Assembly: GCF_001583495.1 (NCBI RefSeq)
Contig: NZ_LQAQ01000061.1
Span: 496,001 to 560,000, forward strand
Origin: Flammeovirga sp. SJP92
Lineage (GTDB): Bacteria > Bacteroidota > Bacteroidia > Cytophagales > Flammeovirgaceae
DNA length: 64,000 bases
Direction: 5' to 3'
Made by a program: the position numbers and the translations under genes. The notes under the pieces are model-generated. The model was not told where the DNA came from. It searched no databases and saw only the letters and a program-made list of their open reading frames with translations. This document shows positions 10,968 through 22,196 of the stretch, one piece after another; the stretch's first letter is position 1, and each line of letters opens with the position of its first letter.

Positions 10968-11723
10968 ATGCGTAAGTTTTTAGGAATTATTCCTGCTCGC
11001 TACGGATCATCCAGATTGGAAGGGAAACCACTTGCTGATATTTGTGGAAAACCTATGATTCAACATGTTTATGAACGTGCTATTGAAACGGTGGATGATG
11101 TTTATATCGCTACTGATGATGTTCGTATTGTTGAAGCAGTTGAATCTTTTGGAGGAAACGTAGTCATGACTTCAGTTGATCATTCTAATGGTACCTCAAG
11201 ATGTTTGGAAGCATTGGAAATCGTCAACCAGCAAACAGGTAAAAACTTTGATGCTGTAGTGAACATACAAGGAGATGAACCTCTACTTGAACCTGTTCAA
11301 CTGACTGAACTGATGGAAAGCTTTGATGAAAACACGGAGTTTGCCACTTTGGTTTTACCGGTTGTTCATGAAGAAGACCTGATCAACAACAGTGAAGTTT
11401 TTGTAACGTTTGATCACAACAAAGACGCATTATATTTCAGTAGAGCGGTAATTCCTACCGTAAGAGGTGTAGATCCTAAAGAGTGGATGCAGCATACCAC
11501 TTTTTATAAGCATATCGGTCTTTACGCCTATACCAAAGAGGCATTAGCAAAATTCTCTTCTCTTGAGCCTACAAACTTAGAGAAATTAGAATCGTTGGAA
11601 CAGCTAAGATGGGTGGAGCACGGTTATAAAATCAAGGTTGGTATAACAGAGCATGATAGCATTCCTGTTGATACTAAGGAAGATTTGGAGCGTGTAAGAC
11701 AAATCATGCAAAAGTTAGTTTAA
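10968..11723 (+). CDS. kdsB: CMP-Kdo synthetase (3-deoxy-manno-octulosonate cytidylyltransferase)
   Basis: 251 aa, the usual length of KdsB. The nucleotide-binding motif IIPARYGSSRLEGKPL is at 7-22, the Asp-rich NIQGDEPL loop lies near residue 105, and a conserved FYKHIGLYAY segment lies near residue 180. It couples Kdo to CMP, the activated form used to build the lipid A inner core at the inner membrane. First gene of an operon that continues with kdsA, the transaldolase/CBS fusion and a KdsC-like phosphatase. That order runs from the last pathway step back to earlier ones. Confidence 0.95.
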   Translation: MRKFLGIIPARYGSSRLEGKPLADICGKPMIQHVYERAIETVDDVYIATDDVRIVEAVESFGGNVVMTSVDHSNGTSRCLEALEIVNQQTGKNFDAVVNIQGDEPLLEPVQLTELMESFDENTEFATLVLPVVHEEDLINNSEVFVTFDHNKDALYFSRAVIPTVRGVDPKEWMQHTTFYKHIGLYAYTKEALAKFSSLEPTNLEKLESLEQLRWVEHGYKIKVGITEHDSIPVDTKEDLERVRQIMQKLV

Positions 11724-11843: not shown

Positions 11844-12674
11844 ATGAGTAAAAACATTGTAAAAGTTGGCGATATCAACTGTGGAGCCGACGAGTTATTC
11901 CTGATTTCTGGTCCTTGTGTTATTGAGGACGAGAGTATCATGATGAAAACCGCAGAGAAATTAAAAGAGGTTACGGAACGTTTGAACATTCCGATGATCT
12001 ACAAAGCATCTTTCCAAAAAGATAACAGATCTTCAGTAGATTACTACAGAGGTCCTGGTATCGATGAAGGTTTAAGAATCCTTCAAAAAGTAAAAGATGA
12101 GTTTGGTTTCTCTCTTGTATCAGATATTCATTATCCAGACCAAGTAAAACCTGCTGCTGAGGTTTTAGATATTCTTCAAATTCCAGCTTACTTATGTATG
12201 CAAACTGACCTTGTGGTTGCTTCTGCTGAAACAGGTAAAGTGGTAAATATCAAACACGGTCAGTTTTTAGCTCCTGAAAACATGATCAAGCCTGCTCAAA
12301 AAGTAGAATCTACAGGTAACAAAAATATCATTTTAACGGAAAGAGGTTATTCTTTTGGTTACAATGACTTGATTGTTGACCCTCGTTCATTCTATGAAAT
12401 GAGACAAACTGGATACCCTGTAGTATTTGATGTAACACACTCTATCCGTAAGTACGGTATCCCTTCTGCAGATCCAACAGGTGGAGCTCGTCAATACTTA
12501 AGCACATTGGCTAGAGCTGGTGTAGCGGCTGGTATCGATGGTTTATTTATCGAAACTCACCCTTGCCCTAACGAAGCTCTTTGTGACGCGGCAAGTCAAT
12601 TAGATGTAAATCAATTAGAAGAGTTCATGAAACCTCTAATTGAATTACACAATATCGAAGTAAGCTACCGCTAG
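11844..12674 (+). CDS. kdsA: Kdo-8-phosphate synthase, metal-dependent type
   Basis: 276 aa. It condenses phosphoenolpyruvate with arabinose 5-phosphate to Kdo 8-phosphate. Conserved blocks include SGPCVIE (22-28), KASFQKDNRSS near residue 55, LTERG followed by FGYNDLIVD near residue 160, and the C-terminal FIETHPCP. Cys25 sits where the Aquifex-type metal-dependent enzymes carry their metal-binding Cys; the E. coli type has Asn there. The gene follows kdsB after a 120-bp gap without a visible terminator. It needs arabinose 5-phosphate, whose maker is not an obvious KdsD in this operon (see the next gene). Confidence 0.95.
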   Translation: MSKNIVKVGDINCGADELFLISGPCVIEDESIMMKTAEKLKEVTERLNIPMIYKASFQKDNRSSVDYYRGPGIDEGLRILQKVKDEFGFSLVSDIHYPDQVKPAAEVLDILQIPAYLCMQTDLVVASAETGKVVNIKHGQFLAPENMIKPAQKVESTGNKNIILTERGYSFGYNDLIVDPRSFYEMRQTGYPVVFDVTHSIRKYGIPSADPTGGARQYLSTLARAGVAAGIDGLFIETHPCPNEALCDAASQLDVNQLEEFMKPLIELHNIEVSYR

Positions 12675-12729: not shown

Positions 12730-13746
12730 ATGGAATTATATTTAGATTCTGCGGAGATCAATGAGATCAAATCGTCTTTTGAACAACTTCCGTTCATGAC
12801 TGGTTTAACTACAACTCCTACGTTCATGGCTCGTCACGGTATCACTGATATCGACGGTACTATCGTTGAGTTGTCGAAAATTGTTCCTGTTCTTCAAATC
12901 GAAGCATTAGGTGACACTGCAGAAGAAATCGTTGCTGAAGCAAAACGTCAAGAGGCGTTAGGTTTAGACCGTGAAACTACTGTTTACAAAATTCCTGTTT
13001 CTAAAGTAGGTCTTAAAGCTTGTAGCATGCTTGTAAAAGAAGGTTTCAAAGTGAACGTTCACCTTGTATACACTTTACAACAAGCGTATATGGCTATGCA
13101 AGCTGGAGCAACTTATGTTTGTCCTCTAGTTGGTCGTTTACAAGACCAAGGTCATGATGCTTTATCTTTAGTGAAAGATTGTGTTGAAGCTGTAAACTAC
13201 TACGGTTACAATACTAAAATCATGTTCTCTTCAGTTCGTACTATCCAACACGTACGTGACGCTGTAGACATCGGAGTTCACACTATTACTGTACCTTGGA
13301 AGATCATGTCTCAATTAACTGAGAACCACTTCACAAAAATCGGTACTGATCAGTTCATCAACGATACTCGTTTAATGACTGTTCGTGTAGGTGATGCTTT
13401 ATCTGACATCAACCCTACTATCACTGCTGACGCTACAATCGCTGAGGCATTAGTAGTAATGACAAACAACAAAACTGGTGCTGCTACTGTAGTAGACGCT
13501 AACGGCGCTGCTATCGGTATCTTCACTGACGGTGACTTACGTCGTTTAGTATCTGAAAAAGGTGGTGATGTTTCAAGCATCAAAGTTGGTGATTTAGGAT
13601 TAACAGCTCCTATCTCTATCGATGCTCACGAATTATTATTCGCTGCATCAAACTTAATCAAAGAGAAGCAAGTTGATGAATTAGTAGTGACACTTGACGG
13701 TAAAGCTATTGGTTTATTAGACGTTCAAGATATCGTAAAATACTAA
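12730..13746 (+). CDS. Transaldolase/F6P-aldolase-like domain fused to KdsD-type CBS pair
   Basis: 338 aa in two parts. Residues 1-215 follow fructose-6-phosphate aldolase/transaldolase: MELYLDSAE start (D6), E58, Schiff-base Lys87 in VYKIPV, then VYTLQQAYMAMQAGA and SSVRT (167-171). Two residues differ from the usual active site: the TTNPS Asn is Thr (TTTPT, T29), and the Tyr of PYVNR is Leu (PLVGR). Residues 220-338 are two CBS motifs with GIFTDGDLRR (263-272), matching the CBS tail of arabinose-5-phosphate isomerase KdsD. The context (after kdsA, before a KdsC-like gene) suggests a role in making or controlling arabinose 5-phosphate; this is inference. Codon use is strongly biased toward GGT, CGT, ATC and AAC, suggesting high expression. 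It could instead be a side enzyme while kdsD sits elsewhere. Confidence 0.85.
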   Translation: MELYLDSAEINEIKSSFEQLPFMTGLTTTPTFMARHGITDIDGTIVELSKIVPVLQIEALGDTAEEIVAEAKRQEALGLDRETTVYKIPVSKVGLKACSMLVKEGFKVNVHLVYTLQQAYMAMQAGATYVCPLVGRLQDQGHDALSLVKDCVEAVNYYGYNTKIMFSSVRTIQHVRDAVDIGVHTITVPWKIMSQLTENHFTKIGTDQFINDTRLMTVRVGDALSDINPTITADATIAEALVVMTNNKTGAATVVDANGAAIGIFTDGDLRRLVSEKGGDVSSIKVGDLGLTAPISIDAHELLFAASNLIKEKQVDELVVTLDGKAIGLLDVQDIVKY

Positions 13747-13755
13747 TCTCTAACC

Positions 13756-14457
13756 ATGAGAGAAGAATTATTCGAAGAAGGAGGAGGCGTGTTTGTAACC
13801 GCCTCCTCTTCTCTTTTAGAGCAATTGAAAAAAGTCAAAGGATTAATCTTTGACTGGGACGGTGTTTTTAACGGTGGTGTAAAAGGCGGTGCAATGCCGA
13901 GTCCATTTAGTGAAGTGGACTCTATGGGTGTAAATATGCTTCGTTTTGGCTACTTCTTAGAGCACGGTGAAATCCCTTTCACAGCAGTTGTAACTGGAGA
14001 ATTTAACGAAGCTGCATTTAAATGGGCCAAAAGAGAACATTTTGATGCTGTTTGTTACTTAGTCAAAGACAAAGTAAAAGTACTTCCGCTAGTAGACAGC
14101 ATGTCTGGCGTAAAAGCAGAAGAAATCCTTTTCACTTTTGATGATATCCTTGATATTTCTTTAGCGAGAGAAGTAGGTACCCGTTTTATGGTCGGAAGAC
14201 AAGGAAGCCCGCTTTTCACTGAATATTGCCGTATGCATGGCTATGCTGATTACATTACTGGCAATGCAGGTAACAGCAATGCAGTTAGAGAAGTATCAGA
14301 AGTTGTATTATGCTTATTGGATCGTTTTGATGAGACTATCGATAAGAGAGTTGATTTTGAAGGCGATTATGCGAAATACATCAAACTGAGAAATGAAATC
14401 CCTACCAAATTCTTCAAGAATGAAGGCAGTGAATTCATAGAAAACAATCCTCTTTAA
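13756..14457 (+). CDS. KdsC-like HAD phosphatase
   Basis: 233 aa, HAD superfamily C0 type. FDWDGVF supplies the nucleophile/acid pair D33 and D35, a VVTGEF segment supplies the Thr of motif II, and FDDILD gives the C-terminal acidic pair; EVDSMGV matches the KdsC substrate-loop region. KdsC removes phosphate from Kdo 8-phosphate, which fits the operon, but the usual TDG after DGV is NGG here and the GDD of motif IV is FDD, so the substrate is less certain. The start is ambiguous. The ATG at 13756 lies 9 bp after the previous stop, but codons 9-18 form a strong hairpin, and most KdsC proteins start nearer the DxD motif. Initiation at a non-ATG codon downstream is possible. Confidence 0.78.
   Translation: MREELFEEGGGVFVTASSSLLEQLKKVKGLIFDWDGVFNGGVKGGAMPSPFSEVDSMGVNMLRFGYFLEHGEIPFTAVVTGEFNEAAFKWAKREHFDAVCYLVKDKVKVLPLVDSMSGVKAEEILFTFDDILDISLAREVGTRFMVGRQGSPLFTEYCRMHGYADYITGNAGNSNAVREVSEVVLCLLDRFDETIDKRVDFEGDYAKYIKLRNEIPTKFFKNEGSEFIENNPL
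13779..13818 (+). terminator. GC-rich hairpin inside the start of the KdsC-like gene
   Basis: GAGGAGGCG (13781-13789) pairs perfectly with CGCCTCCTC (13800-13808) around a 10-nt loop, extendable by two pairs, and is followed by TTCTCTTTTA. In this AT-rich genome it stands out. It looks like an intrinsic terminator or attenuator between the fusion gene and the phosphatase, but it overlaps the annotated coding start. Confidence 0.5.
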
Positions 14458-19581: not shown

Positions 19582-20196
19582 ATGAAAAAGTTTACAATTC
19601 TATTCGCTTCATTATTAGTATCATTTAGTTTAACTGCTAAAGAATATTATTTACCATTCAACGGAATTTCATATTTCTTCAAAGCTTCTTCTAATGGAAC
19701 TTCTGCTTCATTAATCTTTGAAAACCTAGAAGGGCAAGAAATTAATTTTAGTGTAAAAGATGCTGCTGGAAAAACATATATCAATAAAACAGTAATTGCA
19801 TCGGGAAAAGTAAAAGAGAATATCAACTTTAAAAGTTTACCAGAAGGAAAATATACTTTTAAAATGATTTTCGAAGACAAATTATTAGTAAGAGACTTTT
19901 ACGTTACTGAATCAAAAAATGCAGTAATGATGAATTACCACCTTGCTTCTTCTAACCAAAAGTTCAGAACTTCTGTTGTTGAAGATCACTTAAACATCAT
20001 TTTAGGTAAAGAGGTAAAAGGTTTTGTAAGAATCAAATTGTTCACTGATGGTGGAGAGTCTGTATACAATTCTAAATTTATGGCAGGTGCTCAAAACGTA
20101 AAACGTTTCGACCTTTCTAAGTTACCTACAGGTACATATACTACTGAGTTAATCATTGACGGAGTATCTTACTCTGACTCATTCTCAGTACTTTAA
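19582..20196 (+). CDS. Secreted 204-aa protein, paralogue A
   Basis: Family not recognised. The protein has a signal peptide (MKKFTILFASLLVSFSLTA, then KEYY) and about 185 mature residues rich in beta-strand patterns. The mature part looks like two related beta-sandwich units. Each ends in a similar block: NINFKSLPEGKYTFKM in the first, and KRFDLSKLPTGTYTTEL in the second. The second unit and its FSVL end resemble T9SS C-terminal domains, so surface export is possible. The same promoter, operators, 3' UTR and terminator serve a close paralogue at 21582 and two noncoding units upstream. A codon-optimal, A-rich leader suggests strong expression. Confidence 0.8.
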   Translation: MKKFTILFASLLVSFSLTAKEYYLPFNGISYFFKASSNGTSASLIFENLEGQEINFSVKDAAGKTYINKTVIASGKVKENINFKSLPEGKYTFKMIFEDKLLVRDFYVTESKNAVMMNYHLASSNQKFRTSVVEDHLNIILGKEVKGFVRIKLFTDGGESVYNSKFMAGAQNVKRFDLSKLPTGTYTTELIIDGVSYSDSFSVL

Positions 20197-21581: not shown

Positions 21582-22196
21582 ATGAAAAAGATCACGATTT
21601 TATTTGCTACCTTATTAGTCTCCCTTAGTTTATCTGCAAAAGAATATTACTTCCCATTCAACGGAATTTCATATTTCTTCAAAGCATCTGCAGATGGGAC
21701 TTCTGCTTCAATTATTTTCGAAAACTTAGAAGGACAAGAAGTTAATTTCATTATTGAAGACGCTGAAGGAAAAGTTTACACTTCAAAAAGAGTTATCGCT
21801 TCAGGAAAAGTAAAAGAAGATATTAATTTCAAAAGTTTACCTGAAGGAAAATATACATTCAAAATGAACTTTGAAGATAAATTGTTAGTAAGAGAATTTT
21901 TTGTAACGCCTTCAAATACAGCCGTTATGATGAATTATCAATTAGCTTCTTCAAACCAAAAGTTCAAAATCTCTGTAGTAAAAGAAAACCTAAACATCAT
22001 TTTAGGAAAAGAGGTTGAAGGTTTTGTAAAAATCAAATTATATACAAACGATGGTGAGTCAGTTTACAATTCAAAGTTTGTAGCTGGTGCGAAAAACGTA
22101 AAGCGTTTTGACCTTTCAACATTACCTACAGGTACATATACAGCTGAATTAATCATTGATGGAGTATCTTACTCAGATTCATTCTCTGTACTTTAA
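21582..22196 (+). CDS. Secreted 204-aa protein, paralogue B
   Basis: Same length as the protein at 19582 and highly similar throughout, including the signal peptide (MKKITILFATLLVSLSLSA), the FNGISYFFKAS start of the mature part, and the identical GVSYSDSFSVL end. Differences are mostly conservative (for example Asp/Glu, Lys/Arg, Ile/Val), which indicates selection on the protein and not decay. It sits in cassette 4 with its own promoter, operators and terminator. Function unknown; the two-unit beta-sandwich layout suggests an extracellular or surface structural protein. Confidence 0.8.
   Translation: MKKITILFATLLVSLSLSAKEYYFPFNGISYFFKASADGTSASIIFENLEGQEVNFIIEDAEGKVYTSKRVIASGKVKEDINFKSLPEGKYTFKMNFEDKLLVREFFVTPSNTAVMMNYQLASSNQKFKISVVKENLNIILGKEVEGFVKIKLYTNDGESVYNSKFVAGAKNVKRFDLSTLPTGTYTAELIIDGVSYSDSFSVL

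Follow-up and report, generated by a model that had tools for sequence, protein, structure and literature searches.

Introduction

Escherichia coli lacking both kdsD and gutQ is an auxotroph for arabinose 5-phosphate (A5P), and Bacteroides fragilis has an A5P isomerase made of the SIS domain only, without CBS. SIS-type A5P isomerases are described as catalysing the first committed step of Kdo synthesis (PMC10448790). For the E. coli fructose-6-phosphate aldolases (FSA) FsaA and FsaB, a preference for glycolaldehyde as donor and glyceraldehyde 3-phosphate (G3P) as acceptor has been reported, the product being A5P (PMC6298115), and FsaA is reported to have served as an A5P aldolase in E. coli (PMC9947464). 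In the titles and abstract openings of openly licensed papers, those on alternative routes and on the natural role of FSA included, we found no description of a transaldolase-CBS protein or of a Bacteroidota route without KdsD, either of which may be in print elsewhere.

Here we describe a window of 64,000 nucleotides from Flammeovirga sp. SJP92 (contig NZ_LQAQ01000061.1, positions 496,001 to 560,000 of the forward strand), in which one gene of a Kdo operon encodes a transaldolase-type barrel fused to a CBS pair of the KdsD type. Genomic evidence from the sampled order, which we take to be Cytophagales, points to this fusion as a probable second and unrelated source of A5P.

Results

A transaldolase-type barrel joined to a KdsD-type CBS pair

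The fusion (Table 1) is a protein of 338 residues. The Pfam family TAL_FSA (PF00923) matches its residues 3-202 with 115.9 bits (cut-off 27), and CBS matches two stretches further on with 54.4 bits (cut-off 24), while Pfam finds no SIS domain in it. The best CBS-bearing NCBIfam models for the protein are those of KpsF (TIGR00393, 58.2 bits for a cut-off of 203.7) and KdsD (56 bits), which both match the CBS part alone, and the next model reaches 33 bits. Together with the GIFTDGDLRR motif, these matches uphold the reading of the preliminary description, made from the letters alone, that a transaldolase/FSA barrel is joined here to the CBS pair of a KdsD. The protein scores 162.6 bits with the FSA equivalog model TIGR00875, below its cut-off of 245.95.

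The AlphaFold2 model, built with 47 aligned copies, has a mean pLDDT of 91.1 and a pTM of 0.69, and the best solved matches that Foldseek found for it are the transaldolases 1vpx and 3r8r, followed by the Thermoplasma acidophilum transaldolase and the E. coli FSA. An artefact of assembly or gene prediction, or a chance joining, is ruled out by the 80 loci from other records that match the fusion to residues 1-335 or beyond, and by the presence of both domains in 47 of the 47 aligned copies. The protein encoded in the window is 100% identical to one from Flammeovirga sp. OC4.

Among solved structures, the closest relatives of the fusion's CBS pair are 4o9k (57.3 bits), 3fna (43.3), 9e6q (43.1), which is an unrelated CBS protein, and, in fourth place, 3k2v (41.2); 4o9k, 3fna and 3k2v are CBS pairs that belong to A5P isomerases. 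When 21 fusion CBS pairs were placed in a tree with 12 KdsD CBS pairs and four stand-alone CBS proteins, the fusions formed one group (support 93/88) and the KdsD sequences another (95/84), with the stand-alone proteins distant from both. The 12 were taken from 18 fetched KdsD genes, of which five were removed by a motif filter and that of G077 was left out as well. Since the program warned of long branches meeting in this tree, the descent of the fusion's CBS pair from that of KdsD is likely rather than proven.

Table 1. Positions of the Kdo operon genes, and of domains and codons of the fusion gene, within the window
Feature	Position	Strand	Evidence
kdsB, CMP-Kdo synthetase	10968..11723	+	TIGR00466, 234 bits, cut-off 155.2
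kdsA (f-type clade), Kdo 8-phosphate synthase	11844..12674	+	TIGR01362, 344.8 bits, cut-off 314; KDNRSS motif; KdsA tree support 100/99
Fusion, TAL/FSA barrel and CBS pair, proposed A5P-forming enzyme	12730..13746	+	Pfam; AlphaFold2 model; Foldseek to transaldolases 1vpx, 3r8r
Barrel domain, residues 1-214	12730..13371	+	Pfam match at 3-202; residues 1-214 aligned to 1vpx
Thr29 codon	12814..12816	+	T in 92/92 fusion rows, N in 27/27 compared transaldolases
Lys87 codon, Schiff-base lysine position	12988..12990	+	K in 92/92 fusion rows and 27/27 transaldolase rows
His111 codon	13060..13062	+	H in 92/92 fusion rows, T in 27/27 compared transaldolases
Cys131-Pro132-Leu133 codons	13120..13128	+	Ser-Pro-Phe in compared transaldolases; C and L in 92/92, S and F in 27/27
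CBS pair, KdsD type, residues 215-338	13372..13743	+	Solved relatives 4o9k, 3fna, 3k2v; CBS tree
GIFTDGDLRR, residues 263-272	13516..13545	+	Translation; TDGDLRR in all 12 KdsD of the CBS tree
Divergent KdsC-like HAD phosphatase (KdsC-f)	13756..14457	+	KdsC, 34.4 bits, cut-off 208; homologue flanks 63/80 fusion loci

The Kdo operon and the neighbours of the fusion

The four genes kdsB, kdsA, fusion and KdsC-like follow one another on the same strand, with intergenic gaps of 120, 55 and 9 bases, and the first two pass their NCBIfam cut-offs, in agreement with the single operon proposed earlier. The last product resembles KdsC weakly, its NCBIfam score being under the cut-off; its homologues (KdsC-f, median 234 residues), which accompany the KdsA type described below as KdsA-f, likewise stay below the NCBIfam cut-offs. 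Across the 80 fusion loci, some of which are ended by contig ends, a kdsC-f homologue flanks the fusion at 63, kdsA at 48 and kdsB at 20. No gene for the supply of glycolaldehyde was recognised among the recurrent neighbours of the fusion loci.

Elsewhere in the same genome a canonical KdsC-type domain lies within an open frame of 404 residues, perhaps fused to another enzyme (G000:C111:255349-255795). The window also holds a tandem duplication (19582-20196 and 21582-22196), encoding two proteins of 204 residues that are 81% identical and whose starts lie exactly 2000 bases apart.

Two further neighbour families each occur at 17 of the 80 fusion loci. Their look-alikes in G028, matched to the 17 by eye, are a DegT-type aminotransferase and an iron-type alcohol dehydrogenase, and genes of these two kinds adjoin kdsA at L118:4763-7103, L119 and L120. 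The DegT-type neighbour recalls KdnA of Shewanella 8-amino-Kdo synthesis. KdnB, for its part, is described in that same Shewanella synthesis (PMC5125639). The resemblance of the two neighbours to KdnA and KdnB suggests that some Bacteroidota make 8-amino-Kdo.

SIS-domain proteins in genomes with the fusion

Four SIS domains turned up in a search of the whole 8.49 Mb Flammeovirga genome (completeness 100): a single GlmS accounts for two of them, GmhA and MurQ for one each, and none is in a KdsD. The top match to the KpsF family in this genome is the CBS part of the fusion itself (58.7 bits for a cut-off of 203.7). The lack of a SIS-type KdsD, noticed at first in the operon, thus extends to the complete genome.

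A GmhA match is present in 52 of the 55 genomes of the order sample that carry the fusion. The other three (G022, G037 and G089), each 100% complete, have no match to GmhA or to KdsD, which rules out GmhA as the general source of A5P. When these three were searched for SIS domains along with a further 12 fusion genomes, the frames found looked, by length and matched part, like GlmS, GmhA, PGI/PMI and MurQ. Those of G022, G037 and G089 looked, by length and position, like GlmS, PGI/PMI and MurQ, and NCBIfam confirmed three of them, namely PGI/PMI in G022 and G037 and MurQ in G022.

The fusion and KdsD have complementary distributions

The order sample comprised 146 genomes, each searched for the fusion, KpsF/KdsD and KdsA. 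A full or nearly full fusion was found in 55 of them (in G048 and G121 it is broken into fragments at contig ends), KdsD over the cut-off in 76 and both in two. KdsA is present in 129 genomes, 126 over the cut-off and three with partial matches that we counted as present (G101, G027 and G132); of these, 53 carry only the fusion and 73 only KdsD, two carry both and one neither, a complementarity with a Fisher p of 3.7e-22 when shared ancestry is ignored. The 17 genomes without KdsA include one with KdsD (G099) and none with the fusion. Genera of both kinds occur within eight of the 21 families, so that the mutual exclusion does not go back to one old split. The genome with neither source (G098), 94% complete and 6% contaminated, is split into 550 pieces. 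The contig that holds its kdsA stops 114 bases downstream of this gene, at the point where a fusion would begin, and the fusion was not found on any other contig of G098. Common in the sampled order, the fusion is rare in the phylum sample, where it is complete in five of 296 genomes, one of which is the window's own. One fusion locus (L020) belongs to a record titled Candidatus Saccharibacteria and is probably a mis-binned Bacteroidota contig.

The preliminary description would have been overturned by a KdsD in the same genome and in every genome with the fusion. KdsD is absent here and from 53 of the 55 fusion genomes of the order, though a full KdsD accompanies the fusion in seven of 80 named genomes (5/50 and 2/30). 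This named set overlaps the order sample, at least five members lying at shared contig positions (for example G430 and G096), and its absences of KdsD are weaker evidence where they concern drafts, since completeness is not stated for the 80. KdsA is over the cut-off in 21 of 22 named fusion genomes and was not found in the 2.2 Mb draft G439.

We counted KdsA in five of the named genomes that carry both sources. In G476 there are two, one of them canonical; each of the other four has KdsA-f alone, so that in these four both sources stand beside one KdsA. A small KdsA fragment in G449 proved to be the N-terminus that its KdsA-f lacked, the two being identical over 40 residues. KdsD adjoins recQ in G445, G447, G449 and G476, as it does in G028, and is therefore probably native to these genomes, which rules out contamination as the whole explanation of its coexistence with the fusion; no recQ was seen near KdsD on the short stretch fetched from G471. 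Coexistence is expected during a replacement, but would also be expected of a fusion with some other function. In five genomes kdsD lies beside recQ (L126, L152, L153, L154 and L155), and this is the place where a scar of kdsD loss might sit in fusion genomes.

One type of KdsA occurs with either source

In a KdsA tree of 68 rows, from which one DAHP-synthase-like row was left out, 63 rows form the f-type clade (100/99) and five are canonical. The f-type rows (KdsA-f) are at least 68% identical to the KdsA of the window and the canonical ones 45-49%, and the motif KDNRSS or KDNRST is found in 60 of 68 KdsA rows. Two genomes hold two pairs: in G065 KdsA-f adjoins the fusion and the canonical KdsA adjoins KdsD, and in G077 KdsA-f is beside the fusion and the canonical KdsA about 5.5 kb from KdsD.

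The comparison of neighbourhoods with and without kdsD, which the preliminary description had suggested, brings out three genomes of one genus (G028, G055 and G130) that keep KdsA-f directly next to KdsC-f, have no match to the fusion and possess KdsD. In G028 and G130 kdsB is next to KdsA-f/KdsC-f, and the KdsD of G028 lies on another part of its single-contig chromosome. Within the f-type clade, the KdsA of these three genomes groups as sister (95/96) to the KdsA of G010, a genome that carries the fusion but lacks KdsD. Similarly, G086, a 94% complete draft, has KdsA-f and KdsD and no fusion. It appears from these placements that one KdsA type works with either A5P source. Since A5P is the product of KdsD, a KdsA-f that stands with KdsD should use this compound, and the fusion would then most simply supply it as well.

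The active site of the barrel

We compared 92 fusion rows, two of which are the window's own gene, with 27 transaldolase rows. The latter are all from Bacteroidota, as are the fusion rows by record or sample, save for uncertainly binned drafts. Both sets share K87, N109, E58, D6, R136, S168 and R170; among the fusions the catalytic glutamate E58, like K87, is found in every row, and the catalytic aspartate D6 in 91, the remaining row being gapped. The barrel has thus kept the Schiff-base lysine and the phosphate site. The Asn, Thr, Ser and Phe of ordinary transaldolases, on the other hand, are absent from the fusions, which have Thr, His, Cys and Leu throughout (Table 1), and many other columns also differ between the two sets, for example Ala to Ser167 and Asp to Gln138. 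The Flammeovirga genome contains two further TAL/FSA genes, both with the ordinary residues, and the fusion is therefore not its housekeeping transaldolase.

The serine of the donor site (S176 of TalB, A129 in FSA) is reported to govern the preference for dihydroxyacetone, and the change F178Y to make TalB an aldolase (PMC3962226). The loss of this serine in the fusion, which has Cys131 instead, suggests a donor without a second hydroxymethyl group, such as an aldose or glycolaldehyde. Furthermore, the positions of His111 and Leu133 are those of Thr109 and Tyr131 of FSA, which hold the catalytic water; with both replaced, an FSA-like turnover cannot be taken for granted.

Discussion

The central proposal of the preliminary description, namely that A5P comes from an aldolase-type barrel which has supplanted the SIS domain, is strengthened by the near-general lack of KdsD in genomes with the fusion. 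The domain composition, the operon, the absence of KdsD, the complementary distribution, the KdsA type found with either source and the kept lysine position all bear on it, and make the fusion a well supported candidate for a non-orthologous replacement of KdsD. The fusion would then hand A5P to KdsA in KdsD's stead, and we hold it very probable that it supplies this compound. If it does, the barrel is highly likely to act through a Schiff base on Lys87, at the aldehyde level. The two taken together, with either glycolaldehyde plus G3P or ribose 5-phosphate as substrate, make up the account that we consider probable. Should both be right, the likelier reaction is the aldol addition of glycolaldehyde to G3P, which the preliminary description had put forward and which E. 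coli FSA carries out in vitro; the stereochemistry of A5P is suited to it, as that description had pointed out. The KdsD-type CBS pair probably senses a nucleotide, for example CMP-Kdo, and tunes the rate. A5P formation, the choice of substrate and the sensing of CMP-Kdo by the fusion are all inferred.

The reading that survives best beside the addition of glycolaldehyde differs from it in the substrate. To make A5P, the fusion could start from ribose 5-phosphate, a common pentose phosphate and the C2 epimer of the product: Lys87 would form a Schiff base at C1, and C2 would be inverted either by deprotonation or by retro-aldol cleavage and re-addition to the bound G3P. Its attraction is that such a Schiff base allows the inversion without free glycolaldehyde. 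The barrel's lysine and phosphate site are available to it, His111, invariant in the fusions where the compared transaldolases have threonine, could shuttle protons, and the genomic evidence is the same for both substrates. However, the route rests on purely chemical reasoning, and we know of no epimerase in the transaldolase family; we regard it as rather unlikely.

It is also conceivable that the fusion makes no A5P and is a transaldolase whose role in the Kdo operon is regulatory or unrelated, with A5P coming from GmhA or from an unknown isomerase. The wide occurrence of GmhA among fusion genomes and the named genomes that have KdsD as well are in keeping with this. Yet it is improbable in view of the three genomes without GmhA and KdsD, whose SIS frames resemble other families, and of the near-perfect complement that the fusion and KdsD form.

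A direct equivalent of KdsD, that is a barrel turned into an isomerase of ribulose 5-phosphate to A5P without a Schiff base, would account for the substitution seen in the distribution and for the changes in the active site. We find it very doubtful, as the position of the Schiff-base lysine is invariant; a lysine-based ketose isomerase would be awkward as well, for by chemical reasoning simple tautomerisation does not lead from the C2 ketimine of ribulose 5-phosphate to the free aldose. Lastly, the separate clade of KdsA-f and the divergence of KdsC-f might hint at a different sugar acid, built by the fusion and KdsA-f from another aldose phosphate, but this is most improbable given that KdsA-f passes the Kdo 8-phosphate synthase cut-off, that the KDNRSS/KDNRST motif prevails among the KdsA rows and that KdsA-f is found with KdsD in G028, G055, G130 and G086.

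Supply of A5P by the fusion, a second and unrelated enzyme, would explain the occurrence of KdsA without KdsD in many genomes of the sampled order. It would also make A5P formation a natural task of an enzyme from the transaldolase family, change genome-scale metabolic models and imply that inhibitors of KdsD need not act on these bacteria. The fullest form of our proposal, which we judge to have a somewhat better than even chance, is that a transaldolase-barrel A5P synthase or ribose 5-phosphate 2-epimerase with a KdsD-type CBS sensor has been repeatedly swapped with the SIS isomerase in the Bacteroidota Kdo pathway, so that Kdo synthesis would start from a different metabolite by an aldol-type step.

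In comparison with known systems, the fusion resembles transaldolases and FSA in its barrel fold (Foldseek gives 32-34% identity with 1vpx and 3r8r), its Schiff-base lysine, its aspartate and its phosphate site. It departs from them in the fused CBS pair, in the changes at T29, H111, C131 and L133, in its place in a Kdo operon and in its score below the FSA equivalog cut-off. With KdsD, KpsF and GutQ it shares the CBS pair with TDGDLRR and, as we infer, the position in the pathway, whereas it has no SIS domain and its catalytic barrel is unrelated to theirs. The isomerase of B. fragilis and the fusion both depart, within Bacteroidota, from the association of SIS with CBS, the former being SIS without CBS and the latter CBS without SIS.
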